The notes under the pieces were generated by a model. It had not been told where the DNA came from and made no database searches. It saw nothing but the letters and a program-made list of their open reading frames with translations. A stretch of 64,000 bases of DNA from contig NZ_AP021861.1 of the NCBI RefSeq assembly GCF_009177095.1, forward strand, positions 124,001-188,000, read 5' to 3'. This stretch comes from Lacipirellula parvula (lineage in GTDB: Bacteria > Planctomycetota > Planctomycetia > Pirellulales > Lacipirellulaceae). The position numbers and the translations under genes are program-made. Positions 8,078 to 20,938 of the stretch are shown piece after piece (the first letter of the stretch is position 1; the number at the start of each line of letters is the position of its first letter).

Positions 8078-9691
8078 ATGCAACCTTCTCGCATTGGTCC
8101 GATCGCACTTGAGGGACCGCTCGGCGGTTCCGCCGACAGTAATGTGCTGCGCGGCGTGCATATCGAACGCAATTTGCGGATGGCGGTGAAGCTCCTCCCC
8201 CGCGACATGATCACGCGGCCAATGGGGGGCGACTATTTCTCCGCGGACGTGAAGCTGCTGCAGCGGCTCGTGCATCCCAACATCGCGCGAGTGATGGGGG
8301 GCGCGATCGACGAGGGGCAGCCGTATCTTGCGCTGGAACTCGTCGAAGGTGAATCGCTGCGCAGTTTGCTCGATCGCCGCGGTCGCTTGCCGTGGGAGAC
8401 GACCGCCGACATCGCCGAGTCGATTTGCGAGGCGCTCCATTATGTCCACTCGCAGAAAATGATTCATCAACGGCTGACGCCGTCGCGGATCATCTTGCTT
8501 CCTGAGGGGGGCGTGAAGCTGGTTGGCTTCGATTGCCAGATGACCGACAAAGATCAGGTGCTGGGGTTACGCTCGCCGATGAGCGTGGCGAATTATCTGG
8601 CGCCGGAAATTTTTAAGGGCAAAGGTTCGGCCGCGTTGCCGACGGCCGACATGTTCAGCGTTGGCGTCATCCTTTACGAATGCCTGACCGGCTCGCTGCC
8701 GTGGGGGGCGAAGACGCCGTCTGAGTTGGTGCTCGCGCGACGTGCGGGGCCGGCGCCGCGGGTTTCGGCGAGCGTGCTCGAATGCCCCGTGTGGCTCGAC
8801 GTGCTCGTGTCGAAGTTGCTCGAAACGAAGCGCGGCATCCGCCTCGCGACGGCCGACGGCACGCGGCGAGCAATTCTCGATGCGAAGCGGAAGGTCGCCG
8901 AAGGGATGGGCGCCGCAAAGCATGCGATGTCGGGCAAGCAAGGCGCGCTGGCGATGAAGGCCGACCGCAAGGAAATCGCCGCGCTGCGCAAGCACCAAAC
9001 GCCGACGGTGAAAGACGACAGCCCCTTCTACGAACGGGCGTGGTTCTTGGGATTGTGCCTGGCGTCGCTAATCGCCGTTACCGCGTGGGCGATGTGGCCC
9101 AAGAGTGAAGCGGAACTGTACGACGAGTTCGCGCCGACGATGGCGTCGGAGAGCTACACCGACTGGCGGACTGTTTCCGACAAAGTCGCCGATTTCCGCG
9201 AACGTTTCCCAGAATCGGAACACAATGCGGAGCTTGATGCGTTCGAAGACAAAGTCGCCGAAGGGAAGGCAATGATCGAGGTGAAGAATCTCGATCGCTT
9301 CGGCAGCACGCCGAATTCGAAAGCGCAAAGCTTGTTCGCCCAGGGGCAGAAGCGGCAGCAGTTCGGCGATTTGATGTCGGCTTGGGAACTGTACGAGCAA
9401 GCGATCGAGGCGGTCCCGGCAGAGGCGCCCGCCGACGTCGAGGTCTACCGCCGGTTGGCGACGAAGGGGATCGCCGAGATCAAGGCGTCGCCCGATGCGA
9501 AGCGGACGCTCGCGCAAATGGCCGAGGCGAAGTTGGCCGAGGCGGAGGAACTGATCGACGAGGGCAAGCTGCTGCCGGCGAAGGTGCTGCTGGCGGAGTT
9601 TGTGGAGTTGTACGGGGGCAATCCGAAGCTCCGCGAGCAGGCTGCGGCGGCGCGGGCGAAGATTGGCGAGATCGATGCGCAGCGGGAGTAG
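8078..9691 (+). CDS. Membrane-anchored serine/threonine kinase-like protein, probable pseudokinase
   Basis: A 537-residue protein with a kinase-like domain at residues 1-270, one membrane helix at about 321-340 and a C-terminal helical, TPR-like region rich in Ala/Glu. The VAIK-type lysine (AVK, K38) and the APE motif (175-177) are kept, but the catalytic loop reads HQRLTPSR (130-137) where active kinases have HRDLKPSN, and the DFG site reads GFD (150-152). The glycine-rich loop is also poor. The catalytic aspartate and the metal-binding Asn/Asp are therefore absent, so phosphotransfer is unlikely. A scaffold or sensor role, with the cytoplasmic pseudokinase coupled to an extracytoplasmic TPR-like domain, is my inference. 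It stands alone between the cytochrome gene and a PEP-CTERM gene. Confidence 0.85.
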   Translation: MQPSRIGPIALEGPLGGSADSNVLRGVHIERNLRMAVKLLPRDMITRPMGGDYFSADVKLLQRLVHPNIARVMGGAIDEGQPYLALELVEGESLRSLLDRRGRLPWETTADIAESICEALHYVHSQKMIHQRLTPSRIILLPEGGVKLVGFDCQMTDKDQVLGLRSPMSVANYLAPEIFKGKGSAALPTADMFSVGVILYECLTGSLPWGAKTPSELVLARRAGPAPRVSASVLECPVWLDVLVSKLLETKRGIRLATADGTRRAILDAKRKVAEGMGAAKHAMSGKQGALAMKADRKEIAALRKHQTPTVKDDSPFYERAWFLGLCLASLIAVTAWAMWPKSEAELYDEFAPTMASESYTDWRTVSDKVADFRERFPESEHNAELDAFEDKVAEGKAMIEVKNLDRFGSTPNSKAQSLFAQGQKRQQFGDLMSAWELYEQAIEAVPAEAPADVEVYRRLATKGIAEIKASPDAKRTLAQMAEAKLAEAEELIDEGKLLPAKVLLAEFVELYGGNPKLREQAAAARAKIGEIDAQRE

Positions 9692-11059: not shown

Positions 11060-11545
11060 ATGCGATTCTGTCTGCTTGATCGTATCTGCTCGTTCGAACC
11101 TGGGGTGGAGCTGACCGCGGTAAAGAATGTGTCGCTAGCTGAGGAATATCTCGCGGATCATTTTCCCGAGTTTCCGGTGCTGCCGGGCGTTTTCATGCTC
11201 GAAGCGGCCACGCAATCGGCGGCCTGGCTCGTGCGGATGAGCGAAAATTACGCCCACAGCATGATCGTGCTGCAGGAAGCGAAGTCGGTGAAGTTCACCG
11301 ATTTCGTCACTCCCGGCAATCGGCTGGAGATGCGGGTCGAGCAGCTGAAGCAAGAAGGCTCGGCCGTGTCGTTCAAGTTTGAAGGAAAAGTCGGCGAGCG
11401 GACGTGCACCAGCGGCCGATTGACGCTCGAGTGCTTCAACCTCGGCGACGACGATCCGGAACTGGTTGATTTGGATCGCCGGATGGTTGGCGTGCAGCGA
11501 GGATTCCAAGCGATTCTCACGCGGGAGATGAACCTGAAAGCGTAG
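11060..11545 (+). CDS. FabZ-like 3-hydroxyacyl-ACP dehydratase (hotdog fold)
   Basis: A 161-residue hotdog protein. The dehydratase signature HFPEFPVLPG...LEAATQ is complete, with the catalytic pair His34 and Glu48 expected from FabZ. The family removes water from 3-hydroxyacyl-ACP to give trans-2-enoyl-ACP in the cytoplasm. It is the first gene of a tight locus with an ACP, a second dehydratase and a ketosynthase, so it probably works on chains carried by that ACP rather than in housekeeping fatty acid synthesis. A TATAAT-type promoter lies upstream. A C-terminal extension (DLDRRMVGVQRGFQAIL) goes beyond the minimal FabZ length. Confidence 0.88.
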   Translation: MRFCLLDRICSFEPGVELTAVKNVSLAEEYLADHFPEFPVLPGVFMLEAATQSAAWLVRMSENYAHSMIVLQEAKSVKFTDFVTPGNRLEMRVEQLKQEGSAVSFKFEGKVGERTCTSGRLTLECFNLGDDDPELVDLDRRMVGVQRGFQAILTREMNLKA

Positions 11546-11596
11546 TCTCTCGTTGAGGCCAGCCGAGCGAGTTCGCCGGCGGCGATTGATATAGAT

Positions 11597-11620
11597 CGTT
11601 CAACACACCGTTCAACATAC
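11597..11620 (+). repeat. Two tandem 12-mers CGTTCAACACAC / CGTTCAACATAC
   Basis: Two direct 12-bp repeats differing at one base in the 165-bp gap between the first dehydratase gene and the ACP gene. They could be a binding site; nothing else in the gap is recognised. Confidence 0.5.
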
Positions 11621-11710
11621 ATTTAGATAGACTCGCTCGCGGCGTCGGTCGTTTCGTGAAAGCGGCGGCGGTTCAGCAGCGAGTCCTTACCTGCCAGCGG
11701 AGGTATAGTC

Positions 11711-12106
11711 GTGGGAATTCCGTCGCAAGAAGAGATCTTTGACAAGGTTCGCGAAGCCCTGGTCGATGCGTTGGGCGTCGACGAAGACGAAGTAACGCCG
11801 AACGCGACGCTGCGGGGCGACCTCGACGCCGAGTCGATCGACTTCCTCGACATCGTCTTCCGGCTTGAGAAGGCGTTCGACATCAAGATCGAGCGCGGCG
11901 AGCTGATCCCGATGGACGTGCTCGAAGACACCTCCTACGTGAGCGACGGCAAGGTCAACGCCGCCGGCATCGCGAAGCTCAAGGAGCGGATGCCCTTCGC
12001 CGACCTGAGCGGCTTCGAGGCCGATCCGAACGTCCAAAACCTCGGCAACCAGCTGACGGTGCAGGACATGTGCAACTTCGTCGAGCACAAGTTGAAGAAG
12101 GCCTAA
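11711..12106 (+). CDS. Acyl carrier protein with C-terminal extension
   Basis: A 131-residue protein that starts at GTG 11711 with GGAGG 7 bp ahead. The first 80 residues are a standard ACP: LGVDEDEVTPNATL, then DLDAESIDFLDIVFRLEKAF, where Ser42 is the expected phosphopantetheine attachment site. It is longer than housekeeping ACPs (about 75-80 residues), with a segment of about 40 residues inserted or appended after helix II (GKVNAAGIAKLKERMPFADL...). Such long ACPs are typical of specialised acyl systems. It sits between two hotdog dehydratases, which suggests that it carries the chain for this locus. Confidence 0.88.
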   Translation: MGIPSQEEIFDKVREALVDALGVDEDEVTPNATLRGDLDAESIDFLDIVFRLEKAFDIKIERGELIPMDVLEDTSYVSDGKVNAAGIAKLKERMPFADLSGFEADPNVQNLGNQLTVQDMCNFVEHKLKKA

Positions 12107-12112
12107 GAAGTT

Positions 12113-12197
12113 GCGAGCGGCGAGTAGCGAGTTGCGAGCGTGTCGCACGCTTGCGTTCGCTTATCTCGCGACTCGAAACTCGAAACTCGCAACTCGG
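12113..12197. repeat. TTGCGAGTTTCGAGT-type inverted pair between ACP and dehydratase genes
   Basis: TTGCGAGCGGCGAGTAGCGA and GTTGCGAG on the left, CTCGAAACTCGCAACTCG on the right, forming complementary arms. A related sequence lies inside the TadE-like gene at 27451-27473. It occupies the 100-bp gap and the in-frame upstream extension of the next gene is only this repeat translated. Confidence 0.65.
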
Positions 12198-12206
12198 AGC
12201 TTCCCC

Positions 12207-12740
12207 ATGCGCTGGTTCTGGATTGATCGATTCACTGAATTCGTGAGCGGGTCGCACGCGACGGCCGTGAAGGGCGTCTCGCTCTCAGAGGATCATCTCC
12301 ACGACCACCATATCGGCTACCCGATTATGCCGAACTCGCTTTGCTGCGAGGGGATGGCTCAGGCGGGCGGGCTGCTGATCAGCGAGCACTACGGCTTCGG
12401 CGAGCTTGTCGTGCTCGCCAAGCTGTCGAAGGCGAAGTTCACCGGCCGCGTTCGCCCGGGCGAAACGCTCACCTACAAAGTGACGGCCGACTGGATTCGC
12501 AGCGACAGCGCCCAAGTGTCGGGCGTGGCGACGGTCGGCGATCGGCCGCACGGCGAGGTGCAAATTCTGTTCGCCCGCATGGGCGAAGATATGGCCAAGG
12601 AGATGGGCGCCAAGCTCTTTCGGCCGACCGACCTGCGGCATTGGCTCAATTTGGTCGGCGTGTTTGAAGTCGGCGTGAAGCAGGACGGCACTCGGCTGAA
12701 GCGGGAAGATTACCCGCTCAATGAGGCCGCTTCTGCCTGA
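12207..12740 (+). CDS. Second FabA/FabZ-type hydroxyacyl-ACP dehydratase
   Basis: A 177-residue hotdog protein. The start is ATG 12207, with GGAG about 7 bp upstream. The signature HHIGYPIMPNSLCCEGMAQ gives the expected catalytic His34 and Glu48 at the same positions as in the first dehydratase, but the overall sequence is clearly different, so this is not a recent copy. GTVRP-like GRVRPGETLTYKV follows, as in FabZ proteins. Having two dehydratases and one ACP next to a ketosynthase suggests heterodimer formation or dehydration at different chain lengths. It is the third gene of the set. Confidence 0.85.
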   Translation: MRWFWIDRFTEFVSGSHATAVKGVSLSEDHLHDHHIGYPIMPNSLCCEGMAQAGGLLISEHYGFGELVVLAKLSKAKFTGRVRPGETLTYKVTADWIRSDSAQVSGVATVGDRPHGEVQILFARMGEDMAKEMGAKLFRPTDLRHWLNLVGVFEVGVKQDGTRLKREDYPLNEAASA

Positions 12741-12760
12741 TCCGGTGATCTCTTTGGTGA

Positions 12761-12838
12761 GGGTGCCACTGGCATCTTGCCAGTGAGAACTGCCGAGCGA
12801 GCACCCGCTTCCGCACTGGCAAGATGCCAGTGGCACCC
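12761..12838. repeat. GGTGCCACTGGCATCTTGCCAGTG inverted pair
   Basis: The left arm GGTGCCACTGGCATCTTGCC (12761-12785) pairs with the right arm CACTGGCAAGATGCCAGTGG (12814-12838). Each arm is itself a small hairpin. It lies directly after the second dehydratase gene. Confidence 0.8.
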
Positions 12839-12884
12839 CGACTCGGGTCGAATCGAATGGCGTTGGCGCCTACAATCTGGGGAT

Positions 12885-12910
12885 GACCGCGGGGATGAAC
12901 CCCGCGGCTC
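12885..12910. repeat. GACCGCGGGGATGAACCCCGCGG palindrome, intergenic copy
   Basis: Same family as 3524-3548 and 33178-33205, here in the leader of the ketosynthase gene. Confidence 0.75.
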
Positions 12911-12985
12911 GCAGCGTGAACTTGCTGGCTCGCAGTCGATTGTCACTGCTCGATTAGCCCCCTTTCCTGTTTGTGGATTCTTGCC

Positions 12986-14263
12986 ATGCGTCGTCGCGTC
13001 GTGGTCACCGGCATTGGTTGCGTCACTCCCTCGGGCAACAACCCGGAGAAGCTGTGGGAGAACTTGCTCGCAGGTCGCAGCGGCGTGGGGAAGACGACGC
13101 TGTTCGACGCCAGCAATTTTCCCACGAAGATTTCGGCCCAGGTGAAGGACTGGTCGATCGCCGCAGAAGGCGAAGACGCCGCCGTGTGGGCCAACCGTAG
13201 CCGCCACACGCAGTTCGCCGCGGGCGCTGCCAAGCAGGCGGTCAACGACTCGGGCGTGATGACGGGCGTCGAGCCGACCCGCTTTGGCGTCTACCTTGGC
13301 GCCGGCGAGGGGCAGCAAGACTTCTTCCGCTTCGCGCGGATGATGACCGCCGCGACCGCGGCCGACGGCGACTTCTCGCTGAAGAAGTTCGTTGAGACGG
13401 CGCTTAAGGAACTCGACCCGGTGGCGGAACTCGAGCAAGAGCCGAACATGCCAGTCGGTTACTTGGCTGGCATGTTCAACGCTCAGGGGCCGAACGCCAA
13501 CTGCCTCACCGCGTGTGCCGCGAGCAGCCAGGCGGTTGGCGAAGCGACTGAGATCATTCGCCGCGGCGAAGCCGACGTGATGCTCTCCGGTGGCGCCCAC
13601 AGCATGATTCATCCGTTCGGGATCACAGGGTTCAACCTGCTGACGGCGCTGAGCGAGAACAACGCCGAGCCCGAGCGGGCGTCGCGGCCGTTCGATCTCA
13701 ATCGCGACGGTTTCGTGTTGGGCGAAGGCGCGGCGATGGTGGTGCTCGAAGAATACGAGCGAGCGAAGGCTCGTGGCGCGCGGATTTACGGCGAGATCGC
13801 CGGCTACGGCACGACGGCCGACGCCTACCGCATTACGGATCAGCATCCCGACGGTCGCGGCGCCACCGCGTGCATGACGATGGCGCTGAAGGACGCGCAG
13901 CTCAACCCCAACGACATTTGCTACATCAACGCCCACGGCACGAGCACCGCGGTGAACGACAAGGTCGAGACCCACTCGATCCGCCGCGCTTTCGGCGAGC
14001 AGGCATACAAGATTCCGGTGAGCAGCACCAAAAGCATGACGGGGCACTTGGTCGCCGCGGCTGGCGCGACGGAGCTGATCATCTCACTGCTCACGCTGCA
14101 GCGCGGAGTCCTGGCGCCGACGATCAACTACGAGACTCCCGATCCGAACTGCGATCTCGACTACGTGCCGAACGCGGCCCGTGAGAAGAAGTGCAAGGCG
14201 GTGCTTTCGAATAGCTTTGGTTTCGGCGGGCAGAACATCACGCTGATCGCGACGGCGGTGTAG
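12986..14263 (+). CDS. fabF: Beta-ketoacyl-ACP synthase II family
   Basis: A 425-residue condensing enzyme. It has the complete thiolase-fold triad: Cys177 in LTACAASSQ, His317 in NAHGTSTAVND and His354 in KSMTGHLVAAAGA. The N-terminal RRVVVTGIGCVTPSG is classic KAS II. It joins malonyl-ACP to a growing acyl-ACP, with CO2 release. The start at ATG 12986 is the first residue of the conserved N-terminus. It closes the dehydratase-ACP-dehydratase-synthase set; no ketoreductase or enoyl reductase is encoded here, so those must come from elsewhere or the product stays unsaturated. Whether it is the housekeeping FabF or a specialised copy cannot be told from this window. Confidence 0.88.
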   Translation: MRRRVVVTGIGCVTPSGNNPEKLWENLLAGRSGVGKTTLFDASNFPTKISAQVKDWSIAAEGEDAAVWANRSRHTQFAAGAAKQAVNDSGVMTGVEPTRFGVYLGAGEGQQDFFRFARMMTAATAADGDFSLKKFVETALKELDPVAELEQEPNMPVGYLAGMFNAQGPNANCLTACAASSQAVGEATEIIRRGEADVMLSGGAHSMIHPFGITGFNLLTALSENNAEPERASRPFDLNRDGFVLGEGAAMVVLEEYERAKARGARIYGEIAGYGTTADAYRITDQHPDGRGATACMTMALKDAQLNPNDICYINAHGTSTAVNDKVETHSIRRAFGEQAYKIPVSSTKSMTGHLVAAAGATELIISLLTLQRGVLAPTINYETPDPNCDLDYVPNAAREKKCKAVLSNSFGFGGQNITLIATAV

Positions 14264-15480: not shown

Positions 15481-15566
15481 CCCCGGTCTCCGCCCGGGGG
15501 TGGGTGTGAAGTAGGGGCGATGTGCCACCACATGGTGCGCGACCCCCGGGCGGAGCCCGGGGCTAG
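15477..15566. repeat. ~90-bp CTAGCCCCGG...GCCCGGGGCTAG element, right copy
   Basis: Same element as 14273-14363 with a few substitutions. Its first TAG is the stop codon of the AI-2E-family gene. Confidence 0.85.
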
Positions 15567-15711
15567 GGGTGGGCCGGAGTTTCCGCGGGTGCGGAGACTC
15601 TGTCGGCTCCGCGGCTTTAGCGGTATTTTAGAGCCTGGCGTCGCCCATCGAGCAGGCCGCCAATACGGCGCCCGCTGCCCGGTCCGCCCTGCCCTGTCGG
15701 AGAGGTTTTTG

Positions 15712-16272
15712 ATGCGTCTTTGGTTAGCGATTCGATGTTTCTTCAACGTGCTGTTCCATGCCGACGTTGCCAGCCGGTGTCGTTTGGCGTTGGAAGGAAC
15801 CGCTGCGGCGCCAGCCGCTCCGCCCGCGGCACCAGCACCGGCACCGGCACCGACGCCAGCGCCGAAGCCGGCGGCCCCTGTGAAGTCGCCGCGCAGCGAT
15901 GCGATCACGCTGCTCAGCACGTTGCAGCGCGAGGCCCGCTTCGTCGACATCGTCAATGAATCGCTCGACGGTTACTCGGATGCTCAGATCGGCGCCGCCG
16001 CGCGTGACGTGTTGCGAGATTGCGGCAAAGTGCTCGCTCGCGTGTTCGCGATGCGCCCGCTGCAGGCCGGCGAAGAGGGAGCGACGGTAAGCGTTCCGGC
16101 CGGCTACGAAACTGAATGCTTCCGGCTGACGGGCGACGTGTCGCGCGAGCCGCCGTTTTCAGGCAAGCTGATGCACGCCGGTTGGCAAGCGACGAAGTGC
16201 GACCTGCCGACCTGGACGGGCAGCCAGCAGGCGGCGCTGGTGATCGCGCCCGCGGAAGTTCAACTAGGCTGA
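15712..16272 (+). CDS. DUF2760 domain-containing protein
   Basis: A 186-residue protein. The start at ATG 15712 has GGAGAGG ahead (15699-15705). An amphipathic N-terminus (MRLWLAIRCFFNVLF) is followed by a Pro/Ala linker at residues 31-58, then a compact domain with DAITLLSTLQREARFVDIVNE and ending FSGKLMHAGWQATKCDLP. That pattern and the position in front of two Hsp70-like genes match DUF2760. The family commonly sits in this three-gene arrangement (from family memory). The role is unknown, presumably linked to the Hsp70-like partners. The next gene begins 17 bp downstream, so co-transcription is likely. Confidence 0.82.
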   Translation: MRLWLAIRCFFNVLFHADVASRCRLALEGTAAAPAAPPAAPAPAPAPTPAPKPAAPVKSPRSDAITLLSTLQREARFVDIVNESLDGYSDAQIGAAARDVLRDCGKVLARVFAMRPLQAGEEGATVSVPAGYETECFRLTGDVSREPPFSGKLMHAGWQATKCDLPTWTGSQQAALVIAPAEVQLG

Positions 16273-16289
16273 TCGAGAAAGAATTTTAG

Positions 16290-18098
16290 ATGACCGCCAA
16301 GTATGTTGTGGGCATCGACCTGGGCACCACGAATTGCGTGTTGGCCTATGTCGCGCTCGAGACGAAGTCGCCGCAGGTGGAGCTGTTGGAGGTTCCGCAG
16401 CTGGTCGCCGCGAGCACCGTCGAAAGCCGCCCCTCGCTACCCTCCTTCCTCTATCTAGCGCCCGAGCATGAAGCGGCGTCTGGCGCGCTGGTCGTTCCGT
16501 GGCAGTCGGCCATGCCGTTCGCCGTGGGCGAGTACGCGCGGCGTCGCGGCGCCGAGACGCCCGATCGCACGGTCGTCGCCGCGAAGAGCTGGCTCTGCCA
16601 CAGCGGCGTTGATCGCCGGCAACCGTTGCTGCCCGACCACGCGCCGCCCGAGGTAGCGAAGATCTCGCCGGTTGCCGCATCGCGGCGTTACCTCGAGCAT
16701 CTCGTTGCGGCGTGGAACGCGCAGTTCCCTGATGCGCCGCTAGCGCAGCAGACCGTCGTGCTCACTGTGCCGGCGTCGTTCGACGCTGCCGCTCGCGAGC
16801 TGACTCGCGAGGCGGCGTTGGCGGCGGGCTTGCCCGATTCGCTTGTCCTGCTGGAAGAGCCGCAAGCGGCGGTCTATTCGTGGCTTGCTGCGCGCGGCGA
16901 CGCTTGGCGGAAAGATTTGTCGAAGGGCGACCGCCTGCTGGTGTGCGACGTGGGGGGCGGCACGACCGATCTTACGCTGATCGACGTCGCCGAAGCGGAC
17001 GGCGAGTTGGAGTTGCGCCGACTGGCGGTGGGCGACCATCTGCTGATGGGCGGCGACAACATGGACCTCACGCTGGCCCACCGCGTTGCGGAGCTGTTCG
17101 CCGAGCAAGGCGTCAAGCTCGATGCTTGGCAGTCGGTGTCGCTGTGGCATTCGTGCCGCGATGCGAAGGAGAGTTTGCTCGCCGCCGATGCGCCGGAATC
17201 ACATCGCATCTCGGTGCTGGGCCGCGGCAGCAAGCTGATCGGTGGCACGGTGTCGGTCGAGGTGCCGCGCAGCCTCGCCGTCGATCTGCTGGTTGGCGGC
17301 TTCTTCCCGCAGTGTGCGCTCACCGATCGCCCGCAGCGGCGGCGGGCTTCGGGGTTTCAAGAAATCGGCCTGCCCTACCAGGCCGACGTGGCGATCACGC
17401 GGCATCTGGCGGCGTTCCTCACCGCGCACGCCGGCGAAGGGGATCAATCTGCTGCGCCAACGCACGTGTTGTTCAACGGCGGCGTGTTCAAAGCCGACGC
17501 TTTCCGCGCATTGATGCTCGAACGACTCGGCGAGTGGGCCGGCGCCGACCGAACGGTGCGCGAGCTGCCCGGCCCGCGCGACTTGGACTTCGCCGTCGCG
17601 CGCGGCGCCGCGTTCTACGGATGGGTCAAGCAGCAAGGGGGCATGCGGATTCGCAGCGGCGCCGCACGCTCGTACTACGTCGGCATCGAAACGGCGGGCT
17701 TGGCGATTCCTGGCGCCCCGCGGCCGTTGCGGGCGCTGTGCGTGGTGCCGTTCGGCATGGAAGAAGGCACGGCGATCGACGTTCCTTCGAACGAATTTGG
17801 CTTGGTGCTCGGCGAACCGGCGCACTTTCGCTTTTTTAGCTCGGCGGTTCGTCCGCAAGATGCGCCTGGCCAGTTGCTGCCTGCGATCGACGAAGAGCAA
17901 CTGGCGGAAACCGATTCGCTGGAAACCGTGCTCGAAGCCGGCAGCGACGACGCCGAAACCTACGTCCCCGTAAAGTTTCAATCGCGGATCACGGAGCTGG
18001 GCGTCTTCGAGCTGTGGTGCGTGAGCACCGCGTCCGATCGACGCTGGAAGCTGGAGTTCAGCATTCGCGATGATGCGCATGATGGGGCCGCGTCTTGA
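16290..18098 (+). CDS. Hsp70 family protein (short, divergent)
   Basis: A 602-residue actin-fold ATPase. It keeps the Hsp70 nucleotide-binding signatures: phosphate 1 (GIDLGTTNCVLAY, residues about 8-20), phosphate 2 (VCDVGGGTTDLTLIDV), the connect motif (LVLLEEPQAAVYSW) and the adenosine region (LFNGGVFKADAFRALM). The canonical substrate-binding domain of DnaK and its EEVD-like tail are not visible; the C-terminus is a shorter beta-rich region. It is therefore unlikely to be a general chaperone like DnaK. It is co-encoded with DUF2760 and a second, larger Hsp70-like protein whose TTG start overlaps its TGA stop by 4 bp, which suggests coupled translation. Confidence 0.88.
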   Translation: MTAKYVVGIDLGTTNCVLAYVALETKSPQVELLEVPQLVAASTVESRPSLPSFLYLAPEHEAASGALVVPWQSAMPFAVGEYARRRGAETPDRTVVAAKSWLCHSGVDRRQPLLPDHAPPEVAKISPVAASRRYLEHLVAAWNAQFPDAPLAQQTVVLTVPASFDAAARELTREAALAAGLPDSLVLLEEPQAAVYSWLAARGDAWRKDLSKGDRLLVCDVGGGTTDLTLIDVAEADGELELRRLAVGDHLLMGGDNMDLTLAHRVAELFAEQGVKLDAWQSVSLWHSCRDAKESLLAADAPESHRISVLGRGSKLIGGTVSVEVPRSLAVDLLVGGFFPQCALTDRPQRRRASGFQEIGLPYQADVAITRHLAAFLTAHAGEGDQSAAPTHVLFNGGVFKADAFRALMLERLGEWAGADRTVRELPGPRDLDFAVARGAAFYGWVKQQGGMRIRSGAARSYYVGIETAGLAIPGAPRPLRALCVVPFGMEEGTAIDVPSNEFGLVLGEPAHFRFFSSAVRPQDAPGQLLPAIDEEQLAETDSLETVLEAGSDDAETYVPVKFQSRITELGVFELWCVSTASDRRWKLEFSIRDDAHDGAAS

Positions 18099-20938
18099 GC
18101 GAACGCCCTTTGCCAAACGCCGACGGCGAGGCGCCTAGCCGGTTTGTCGTCGGCATCGACCTCGGCACGACCAACTCCGCGGTGGCGTACGTCGATACGC
18201 AGCAGGAGCCTTGGCAAGTCGCCACGCTGCCAATTCTGCAAGTCGTGGCGCCGTTTCAGGCGGAGCAGCGCGAGACGCTGCCGTCGTTTCACTACCAAAC
18301 TACCTCAGCGGAAGCGAACGCCGGCGCCGTGCGTTTGCCGTGGAGCGCGGAGGCGCCGTCGCATGCGGTGGGAGTCTTTGCACGTGACGAAGGGACCGGC
18401 AATCCGGGGCGGTTGGTTGCTTCGGCGAAGTCTTGGCTCTCGCACACCGGCGTCGACCGTACGGCCGACTTGCTCCCCTGGCATGGCGACGCCGACGTCG
18501 AGCGGCTTTCTCCCGTCGAAGCGTCGTCGCGGTACCTACGGCATCTGCACGAGAATTGGAACGCCGCGTTTCCGAATCATCCGCTCGCCGAGCAGGATGT
18601 GGTGGTGACGCTCCCGGCGTCGTTCGACGAGGTGGCCCGACAGCTGACCATAGAGGCGGCCAAACGGGCGGGCCTGCCGCGCATCATTCTGATCGAGGAA
18701 CCGCAGGCCGCGTTTTACGCGTGGGTGTACCGCAACGCCGTCGACTGGCAGCAGCAGATTACGTCGGGGCAGAAGATTTTGGTGTGCGACGTCGGCGGCG
18801 GCACCTCCGACTTCACGCTGATCCGCGTGAGCGCCAACGAGACGACGGGCCACGCGGTCTTCAATCGCATCGCGGTTGGCGAGCATCTCATCCTGGGCGG
18901 TGACAATCTCGACCTCGCGCTGGCTCGCTACGTCGAGCAGAAACTTGCCGGCGACGACAAGCTGCCGGCGCATCAGTGGGAAGTGTTGGTGCGCACGGCT
19001 CGCCGCGTTAAGGAAACGCTGCTGGGCGAGAACCCGCCCGAGACGATCACGATCAATCTCCCCGCGGCGGGCGCAAAGCTCATCGGCGGCGGGTTGCAGA
19101 CGGCGGTGACGCGGGCCGAAGTTGAGTCGCTGTTGCTCGATGGCTTTCTGCCGCGCGTGAACTTGACCGACAAGCCGGCGCGGAAGCAGTCGGGCTTTCA
19201 AGATTTCGGTTTGCCTTACGCGACCGATCCGGCGATCACTCGCTACTTGGCGGCGTTCTTGTCGGCCCATCGTTTTACCGGCGACGAAACGTTGGGAAGC
19301 GATCGGCCAGCGGGCCAAGGGGCAGATCCGGCTCGGCCCGACGTGGTGCTGCTGAACGGCGGGCTCTTCGCGTCGCCCGTGTTGCAGCAACGACTGCTAG
19401 AAGTCGTCGCGTCGTGGTTTTCATCGCCAGAGCAGTCTTGGCGCCCCGCGGTGCTCGAAAGTCCGCGGTTGGATTTGGCCGTCGCGCATGGCGCCGCCTA
19501 CTACGGCATGGTGCGTCGCGGCGAAGGGGTGTCGATCGCGGCGACGCTCGCCCGCAGCTACTACATCGGCGTCGCCAGCGACAAGCCGACCGCGGTTTGC
19601 CTGGCGCCCGGCAACGCGGTGGCGGGGCAAGAGTTTGAAATCGAGGGGCTCGACCTGCAGGTGACGCTCGCCGAGCCGGTGGAATTTCCGCTGTATGTCT
19701 CGAGCAGCCGACTCGTCGATCCGCCAGGCGCGATCATCGAGGTGAACCGCGAGGAACTGACGCCGCTGCCGCCGATTCGTACCGTGCTGAAGTCTGGCCG
19801 CCAGAAAGATCAGCAGCAAGCGAAGGTCCGCTTGCGCGCCCAGCTCTCGGAAATCGGCGTGCTGGAACTTTCGTGTCGCGAGGTCGATGCGAACCGGAGT
19901 TGGCGGTTGCAGTTTGATATTCGCTCGACGACGCAAACGGATCTCGCCGCGCACGACACCGCCGGCGAGCGCGAAGGGTTCGTCGACGAGCCGACGCTGG
20001 CAGCGTGCCGCGAGCGAATTGCCGGCGTCTTCGCCGAGTCGGGCGGCACGCCGCCGCGGGAGCTGATGCCTGAACTGGTGCGCGCGCTCGAACTCGACAA
20101 GCACGAGTGGCCCACCTCGGCGCTGCGGCGCCTTTGGGAAATGTTGATGGAGTTCCAAGCGGGACGCCAGCGATCGCCGGCCCACGAAGCGCGGTGGCTC
20201 AACTTGGTCGGCTACTCCCTGCGGCCTGGTTACGGATTCGCCGTCGACGACTGGCGGGTTGCTCAAACCTGGCGGGCGGTCAACGGCAAGATCGCGTTCC
20301 CAGCATCGCATGCCGAGACGCTCATTTTGTGGCGGCGGATTGCCGGCGGGCTGAGCCGCGGTCAGCAACTGGGGTTGGCCGAGCCGTTGATCGCGTCTGT
20401 TCGCGCGTTGCGGCGTCGCTTCGACGGCGGAGCCGCGCTGGCTGGAACCACGGCGCTCGATCCGGCCGCGACGCTGGAGATTTGGCGGCTGCTGGGCTCG
20501 CTGGAGTTGCTGCCTATCAACCTGAAGCTCGAGTTGGGCGACCATATCGTCCATCTTTTGCCGAAGCGCAAGCTCGAGAACGCGCGGCCAACGATGATCT
20601 GGGCGTTAGGCCGGCTCGGGCAGCGCGTCCCGTTGAGCGGGCCGTTGAACACGGTGGTTCCCGTGCAGCAGGCGGCGAAGTGGCTCGACGCGATCTTGGC
20701 TCGCCCCGAAACGGACCTGCTATCCAATGCGGCTGTGATGCAACTCGCGCGTCGCACGGACGATCGGCACCGCGACGTCGATGCTGCTCGCCGCGCTCGC
20801 ATCGTCGAGTGGCTGGAGTTCCGAGACGCAGCTGAGCACTTGATTGAACTCGTTCGCACTGGCGGTGCGCTCGATGAGGGCGAGCGGGGCGTCGTGTATG
20901 GCGAGTCGATGCCGATTGGGCTGCGCATTCATGAGTGA
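18095..20938 (+). CDS. Hsp70 family protein with long C-terminal extension (DUF3731-like)
   Basis: A 947-residue protein starting at TTG 18095, which overlaps the upstream stop (TTGA). Residues about 17-600 form a second Hsp70-like domain (FVVGIDLGTTNSAVAY; VCDVGGGTSDFTLIRV; VVLLNGGLFASPVL). It is homologous to the protein upstream but clearly distinct. From about residue 625 on a helical extension follows (ERIAGVFAESGGTPPRELMPEL...RRLWEMLMEFQAGRQRSP...) that matches my memory of the DUF3731 region. The pair may form a heteromeric ATPase with the DUF2760 protein. The client is unknown. Confidence 0.85.
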   Translation: MSERPLPNADGEAPSRFVVGIDLGTTNSAVAYVDTQQEPWQVATLPILQVVAPFQAEQRETLPSFHYQTTSAEANAGAVRLPWSAEAPSHAVGVFARDEGTGNPGRLVASAKSWLSHTGVDRTADLLPWHGDADVERLSPVEASSRYLRHLHENWNAAFPNHPLAEQDVVVTLPASFDEVARQLTIEAAKRAGLPRIILIEEPQAAFYAWVYRNAVDWQQQITSGQKILVCDVGGGTSDFTLIRVSANETTGHAVFNRIAVGEHLILGGDNLDLALARYVEQKLAGDDKLPAHQWEVLVRTARRVKETLLGENPPETITINLPAAGAKLIGGGLQTAVTRAEVESLLLDGFLPRVNLTDKPARKQSGFQDFGLPYATDPAITRYLAAFLSAHRFTGDETLGSDRPAGQGADPARPDVVLLNGGLFASPVLQQRLLEVVASWFSSPEQSWRPAVLESPRLDLAVAHGAAYYGMVRRGEGVSIAATLARSYYIGVASDKPTAVCLAPGNAVAGQEFEIEGLDLQVTLAEPVEFPLYVSSSRLVDPPGAIIEVNREELTPLPPIRTVLKSGRQKDQQQAKVRLRAQLSEIGVLELSCREVDANRSWRLQFDIRSTTQTDLAAHDTAGEREGFVDEPTLAACRERIAGVFAESGGTPPRELMPELVRALELDKHEWPTSALRRLWEMLMEFQAGRQRSPAHEARWLNLVGYSLRPGYGFAVDDWRVAQTWRAVNGKIAFPASHAETLILWRRIAGGLSRGQQLGLAEPLIASVRALRRRFDGGAALAGTTALDPAATLEIWRLLGSLELLPINLKLELGDHIVHLLPKRKLENARPTMIWALGRLGQRVPLSGPLNTVVPVQQAAKWLDAILARPETDLLSNAAVMQLARRTDDRHRDVDAARRARIVEWLEFRDAAEHLIELVRTGGALDEGERGVVYGESMPIGLRIHE

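Follow-up and report, generated by a model that had tools for sequence, protein, structure and literature searches.

A planctomycete pseudokinase with a predicted membrane anchor and its paralogue with intact kinase motifs

The gene at positions 8078 to 9691 of the window, that is, of the whole stretch of 64,000 nucleotides analyzed here (bases 124001-188000 of the 6.92-Mb, single-contig genome of Lacipirellula parvula), encodes a pseudokinase, referred to below as A; B denotes its intact paralogue in the same genome. Judging from the sequences of A and its orthologues, A goes back to an active receptor kinase that was damaged once and lost further residues later. A is almost certainly functional rather than decaying, and probably serves as a signaling partner or scaffold rather than as an enzyme. 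Our best explanation, to which we assign a probability of roughly 0.45, is that A is a non-catalytic, single-pass receptor with a dead kinase domain that acts as a partner of B.

Domain layout and active site of A

The gene and its features are as follows (evidence in brackets).
8078..9691, forward strand: gene A, pseudokinase, ATG start, 537 amino acids (open reading frame, Pfam, orthologues)
8081..8899, forward strand: protein kinase-like domain, residues 2-274 (Pfam 15-217; AF2 model against PknB)
8114..8155, forward strand: degenerate glycine-rich loop, residues 13-26, GPLGGSADSNVLRG (orthologue alignments)
8189..8191, forward strand: K38, the beta3 (VAIK) lysine, kept within AVKLL (alignments, StkP)
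8246..8248, forward strand: D57 at the alpha-C Glu position (Asp in 20 of the 21 family members that have letters there)
8465..8473, forward strand: H130-Q131-R132 in place of HRD, catalytic Asp replaced by Arg (R in 22 of 22 family members)
8486..8488, forward strand: R137, where the catalytic loop normally has its metal-binding Asn (Asn absent in 79 of 79 members of the degenerate clade)
8525..8533, forward strand: G150-F151-D152 in place of DFG (in the family, G150 in 22 of 22 and D152 in 21 of 22)
9020..9049, forward strand: SPFYERAWFL, conserved juxtamembrane stretch, residues 315-324 (orthologue alignments)
9050..9106, forward strand: single predicted transmembrane helix, residues ~325-343 (hydropathy; helix 317-338 in the AF2 model)
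9107..9688, forward strand: helical, TPR-like tail, residues 344-537, presumably extracytoplasmic (AF2, fold search; homologous to the tail of B)

The original prediction had placed a membrane-anchored Hanks-type kinase-like protein at 8078-9691, and the open reading frame occupies exactly these positions. An N-terminal kinase domain is followed by a linker, the SPFYERAWFL stretch, one transmembrane helix and a helical tail of ~195 residues. The kinase assignment is borne out by a Pfam Pkinase match to residues 15-217 (8.6e-31) and by an AF2 model of residues 1-295, which matches PknB (1o6y) over residues 2-271 with a Z score of 28.3 and an rmsd of 2.5 Å (254 aligned). This model is the best of five (pLDDT 77.6; the other four 55-61): with a first alignment of 5 rows the kinase part stayed below a pLDDT of 50, and once six kinase rows taken from viral contigs had been included, one model out of five was usable. 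The membrane anchor likewise stood up, as a TM-type hydrophobic segment is present in 84 of 86 orthologues. Flanking charges of +1 on the kinase side versus -4 on the tail side suggest a topology with the kinase inside and the tail outside, because the more positive flank lies on the kinase side; among the orthologues, this charge bias is seen in only 61 of 86.

For the outer part, which had been called TPR-like, the helical character was corroborated while the likeness to TPR proved weak. AF2 predicts the tail to be all-helical, with 10-residue pLDDT means of 71-91 from residue 341 on. The best 50 rows of a fold search with the whole model had Z scores of 6.4-9.2; a COPI subunit and 14-3-3 stood at the top, and TPR proteins and BamD were also present; all tail matches were local or of large rmsd, and low, tied and helical, so that the absence of EssB/YukC from these 50 rows excludes nothing. 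Weak Pfam matches to TPR_14 and TPR_6 occurred in 7 and 5 of 15 A-type tails, respectively. We regard the tail as possibly, and at most weakly, TPR-like, a TPR domain being made of tandem 34-residue helix pairs.

A HMMER pairwise alignment with the solved kinase StkP (2e-24) puts H130-Q131-R132 under H-R-D and G150-F151-D152 under D-F-G, and the orthologue alignments concur on both motifs, exactly as originally read from the sequence; the retained ATP lysine (K38, present in 20 of 21 family members with letters) and the loss of the catalytic base and of metal-binding residues (R132, G150) were equally correct. Three further losses had gone unmentioned, namely the exchange of Asn for R137, of the alpha-C Glu for D57, and the decay of most of the glycine-rich loop. 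Since the change of Asn to R137 adds to that of the DFG Asp to G150, both metal ligands of A are gone. Chance and a sequencing, base-calling or frame error at the motifs were rejected, as Lacipirellula limnantheis and 20 further family members carry the same Arg and Gly.

An active Hanks-type kinase is defined by four residues, namely Lys, HRD Asp, Asn and DFG Asp; A has one of them, and none of the 79 members of its degenerate clade has all four. According to the definition given in a 2025 review (PMC12599244), a pseudokinase is without at least one of beta3 Lys, HRD Asp and DFG Asp, which applies to A and to 77 of the 79. As judged by sequence, the pseudokinase reading thus held, with the base and both metal ligands missing in 22 of 22 family members, and ordinary protein phosphotransfer by A appears very improbable.

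Orthologues, order of the losses and selective constraint

A tail-only profile (E <= 4.3e-30, with no more than 7 candidates scored per genome) detected A in 99 of the 396 genomes searched in the order; the alignment covers 86 of these 99 genomes, with 13 left out. It comprises 22 sequences from the window's family (f1), 57 from a sister family of the same order (f15), and seven from other families of the order. The orthologue of L. limnantheis is 83% identical to A, with R and G at the two Asp positions. In one locus, L012 (G014:C647), the protein match crosses one TAG, yet an open 553-residue frame encodes the gene.

The window's family is uniform: catalytic Asp is replaced by Arg, Asn is absent and DFG Asp is replaced by Gly in all 22 sequences, with K38 kept in 20 of the 21 that have letters there, so that the family members share the R132 and G150 substitutions, the point on which the original prediction proposed to be checked. 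The sister family is graded, with HRD Asp present in 7 of its 57 sequences, Asn in 0, DFG Asp in 45, DFG Gly in 0 and Lys in 27. Taken together, the 79 sequences are without Asn (79), DFG Gly (79), HRD Asp (72) and DFG Asp (34), and in 77 of them one or more of the residues Lys, HRD Asp and DFG Asp are missing. The two remaining sequences, L098 and L111, keep these three residues and are without only Asn and DFG Gly; by their motifs, they could still be active or represent intermediates. None of the seven clade members with an HRD Asp belongs to the window's family, and by parsimony this residue may have been either kept or regained. Five loci (L125, L128, L129, L131 and L140) combine an HRD Asp (HLD) with beta3 Lys replaced by Cys and DFG by SFW, another route of site loss.

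Outside the degenerate clade, 13 of 14 A-type sequences are intact: all six from families f2, f5 and f10 are canonical, the single f9 sequence reads HRN with the rest intact, and seven of seven sequences of family f21, from outside the order, are canonical (a search of 294 genomes outside the order gave 8 strong A-type matches, of which 7 were read). The original prediction regarded orthologues with restored motifs as evidence against it. Intact orthologues do exist (six of seven from other families of the order, seven of seven from another order), but they fall outside the degenerate clade and hence look ancestral, not restored.

A maximum-likelihood tree, calculated without the catalytic columns and read from a basal three-way split (two f21 groups and the rest), separates the 86 sequences from the 7 of f21 (support 100) and unites f1 and f15 in a clade of 79 (support 100). 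Within it, f1 forms one clade (support 100), whereas f15 is divided: 9 of its 57 sequences fall with f1 (support 85) and the other 48 stand apart. On this tree, parsimony requires one change each for Asn and DFG Gly, both of which are present at the root, versus 5 changes for HRD Asp, 4 for DFG Asp and 5 for Lys, counts that may include regains. Parsimony on these sequences thus shows a single origin for the loss of Asn and DFG Gly; the counts indicate that the metal site was damaged once, while the other residues changed several times.

Despite these losses, A is under purifying selection, as comparison of coding sequences shows, and its dead kinase domain is more tightly constrained than its tail. 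Comparison of the window gene with its L. limnantheis orthologue gave dN/dS values of 0.085 (kinase domain), 0.045 (linker) and 0.233 (tail); the values for B in the same two species were 0.021 (kinase domain) and 0.221 (rest). Mean identity across 20 family genomes was 65% for the A kinase domain, 45% for the A tail and 76% for the B kinase domain. The kinase domain is thus the more conserved half of A but less conserved than that of B, and 18.5% of its columns are invariant in the family.

Paralogue B and the role of A

The best match of A within its own genome is B (G000:C1:2639029-2640891, 621 amino acids), which has the same architecture of kinase domain, TM segment and tail. The two tails are homologous (hhalign 99.7%, E 3.9e-26, 210 columns), and when all 44 candidates of this genome were scored with a profile of the A tail, A and B alone matched at E <= 0.01. 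For B, we chose 90 genes (30 best in the family, 60 from other families), one of which is truncated by its contig; the 89 that span the kinase motifs (50, plus 39 from f15) all have an intact HRD, Asn and DFG. Within f15, A is degenerate in 57 of 57 sequences, in contrast to B, which is canonical in 39 of 39. A kinase-domain tree that also includes 25 further kinases of the genome groups all 86 A sequences together (support 0.88), and likewise all 50 B sequences (1.0). One of these 25 kinases joins A and B at a support of 0.75, so the status of A and B as nearest sisters rests mainly on the tail. The genome holds 34 Pkinase matches at E <= 1e-10, and among the 30 loci read, both Asp residues are missing only in A; for one of these, L167, the HRD-type Asp was seen and the DFG position not placed. 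Another locus, L173 (G000:C1:1069265-1070029, in a 1986-residue frame), reads HRS for HRD with DFG intact and is a second candidate pseudokinase.

A B-type gene accompanies A in all 99 A-bearing genomes, as found by a B-tail profile elsewhere in the genome in 76 of 76 outside f1 and by protein match in the 23 of f1. Of the 396 genomes examined in the order, 342 have a B-type match at E <= 1e-75, and most of these have no A. Co-occurrence hence says little, as B is near-universal in the order: it permits a partnership but does not argue for one, and B evidently does not need A. A Fisher test of co-occurrence at E <= 1e-75 gave p 2e-6, but we dropped it as evidence, since this threshold admits kinase-only matches and the test does not correct for relatedness; in addition, genome G212, with 88 kinase matches, has none at E <= 1e-75 and yet carries a B-type tail. 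Distance-based co-evolution of A and B gave a partial r of 0.215 after correction on a neighboring gene, a value reached by 169 of 2000 label permutations. The two genes are not neighbors in the genome, and the genes around B in the family (YidC-like, aminotransferase, TsaD-like, MnmE-like and phosphoesterase genes) gave no functional lead.

Eukaryotic receptor pseudokinases act on active relatives by allostery or substrate delivery, and A may do the same. The sensor or scaffold role originally suggested for A is conjectural. In the mechanism that we propose, A would have descended from an active PknB-like receptor kinase through loss of both metal ligands and the catalytic base. Outside the cytoplasmic membrane, its helical tail would contact a partner or ligand; the tail, the dead kinase domain or both would pair with B, or with A itself; and A might then set the activity of B allosterically or bring B its substrate. 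We favor a co-receptor or allosteric partner of B because the two proteins share a tail, B is an intact twin, and the dead domain of A is under constraint. That the partner is B specifically is a tentative identification, held at somewhat less than even odds, and another scaffold role accounts for most of the remainder. The strongest form of the idea is speculative and on balance unlikely: A and B would be an ancient pair of bacterial receptors whose outer domains match, one kinase being dead and the other live, with A as the allosteric co-receptor of B, where B would keep its catalytic residues strictly and A would have given them up in one planctomycete lineage. If true, the pair would parallel in bacteria those eukaryotic receptor pairs in which one member is a pseudokinase, and the intact outgroup A genes together with the graded losses in the clade would offer a stepwise view of the conversion of a kinase into a regulator.

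The main rival is an assembly scaffold for an envelope complex, built like EssB/YukC or TraF and with no special tie to B. A shares their predicted topology and has a helical tail, and in nine sister-family loci it lies opposite SIS-CBS and LptD_N genes. However, the annotated neighbors of A in the window (PQQ propellers, DUF1552, PSD, PEP-CTERM and acyl-synthesis genes) include no secretion genes, the kinase domain is near PknB in sequence and predicted fold, and a tail common to an intact kinase implies that it was a receptor part before the kinase residues were lost. We thus consider such a scaffold rather unlikely. The nine loci (L083, L087, L089, L092, L125, L128, L129, L131 and L140) have A divergent from SIS-CBS and large LptD_N-domain genes, which are envelope genes.

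Non-canonical catalysis, as in the kinase-like folds SidJ and SelO, or weak phosphotransfer through relocated residues such as D152, would fit the constancy of the altered site in the family (K38 and D57 in 20 of 21 each, R132 and G150 in 22 of 22, D152 in 21 of 22), and pseudokinases with other chemistry exist, as the 2025 review describes (PMC12599244). Against it, A is missing both metal ligands and the base; in addition, 30 of the 57 sister-family sequences have lost K38 and the replacing residues vary, with no common new catalytic set, which makes such an activity quite improbable. Nucleotide binding as a conserved property of the wider clade also seems unlikely from the alignment, because only 27 of 57 sister-family members keep the Lys.

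Downstream of A, the window holds four family-specific neighbors identified by Pfam.
11060-11545, forward strand: FabA-like
11711-12106, forward strand: acyl carrier protein
12111-12740, forward strand: second FabA-like
12971-14263, forward strand: ketoacyl synthase

These acyl-chain pathway genes (11060-14263) keep their order in most family loci examined. Of 21 family loci, 19 have acyl-synthesis genes in the 6 kb that follow A, on its strand: the full set of four is present in 15, and the other 4 end inside the cluster (at the end of the available DNA or at the 6-kb limit); the two loci without them are L064 and L067. A might accordingly regulate these genes, for instance as a membrane scaffold for their enzymes, but another ORF intervenes in the window, neither of the two outgroup loci with enough DNA (L080, L082) has the genes in the 6 kb downstream of A, and in neighbor clustering they recur only in the window's family, save for a ketoacyl-synthase-type gene upstream of A in L143. 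Such a role is very unlikely; the adjacency is probably family-level gene order, and we rejected an operon-based function for A, its acyl neighbors being nearly confined to one family. Farther downstream, at 15520-20938, a DUF2760 gene precedes a pair of Hsp70-like genes, of which the second carries a DnaK-related domain, DUF3731, at its C terminus. A promoter and terminator scan returned one promoter-like site versus 0.7 expected, and one viral scan found nothing.

Finally, decay of A, which its lower conservation relative to B and its lost motifs might suggest, has a negligible chance and was rejected on dN/dS and conserved frames: one frame is open across kinase domain and tail in 86 sequences (L034 ends at a contig edge), the 79 degenerate ones span 27 genera, and the kinase-domain dN/dS and invariant columns given above point the same way.

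Along a supported tree, one orthologous group thus contains active sites that are intact, broken in part or broken completely, and B, with the same architecture, intact motifs and the same cells, provides an internal control for A. Both the route from receptor kinase to regulator and bacterial receptor pairs of a dead and a live kinase are open to testing in culturable planctomycetes.

Comparison with known systems

Bacterial pseudokinases are known but largely unexplored experimentally, as stated in the 2025 review of their families (PMC12599244), whose main text contains no word beginning with planctomyc or pirellul. A survey of planctomycete kinases counts as functional those domains with all three key residues, a count outside which A-type genes would fall, and its main text contains no word starting with "pseudo" (PMC11032199). 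Among the matches listed for open-licence PubMed Central papers, we found no report of a planctomycete pseudokinase family.

Like A, the GLW, CP1, DYD, DLHK and ActPs2 groups are conserved bacterial Ser/Thr pseudokinases, and their descriptions, as given in the review (PMC12599244), set A apart from each. GLW pseudokinases have GLW for HRD and a replaced beta3 Lys, whereas A has HQR and K38; CP1 pseudokinases have no TM segment and a linked COG3899 domain, whereas A has a TM helix and no Pfam ATPase domain. DYD pseudokinases combine a beta3 Lys-to-Arg change with a DYD motif, unlike the K38 and GFD of A, and the DLHK group keeps the HRD Asp and has no TM segment, unlike A with R132 and its TM helix. 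ActPs2 members carry a beta3 Arg and an HRD Asp-to-Asn change in place of K38 and R132, and in ActPs3 all three catalytic motifs are degraded, including the beta3 Lys that A keeps. The ActPs3 pseudokinase domain of MviN from Mycobacterium tuberculosis is membrane-linked as in A, and is phosphorylated by PknB and then recruits FhaA; it differs in belonging to another protein, in the loss of the beta3 Lys (VALT), and in that no such tail is described for it (PMC12599244).

EssB/YukC and TraF resemble A more closely in overall build, with a cytoplasmic pseudokinase, one TM helix and a TPR-like outer domain, a layout that A shares by prediction only (PMC13037476). The outer part of TraF is described as resembling TPR proteins (PMC13037476; also PMC12599244). 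EssB/YukC and TraF belong to Gram-positive type VII and type IV secretion, whereas A has no such neighbors among those seen, a kinase domain near PknB and an intact sister kinase. Neither A nor 15 A-type tails gave an EssB/YukC Pfam match at E <= 0.1, the EssB/YukC family being divergent.

Receptor Ser/Thr kinases of the PknB/StkP type share with A the kinase fold, a kinase domain inside, one TM helix and an outer part. A scores 132.5 bits against the NCBIfam model of the PASTA kinase Stk1/PknB (NF033483), below its cut-off of 450, and differs from PknB and StkP in its helical tail and in having lost the catalytic Asp, the Asn and the DFG Asp.
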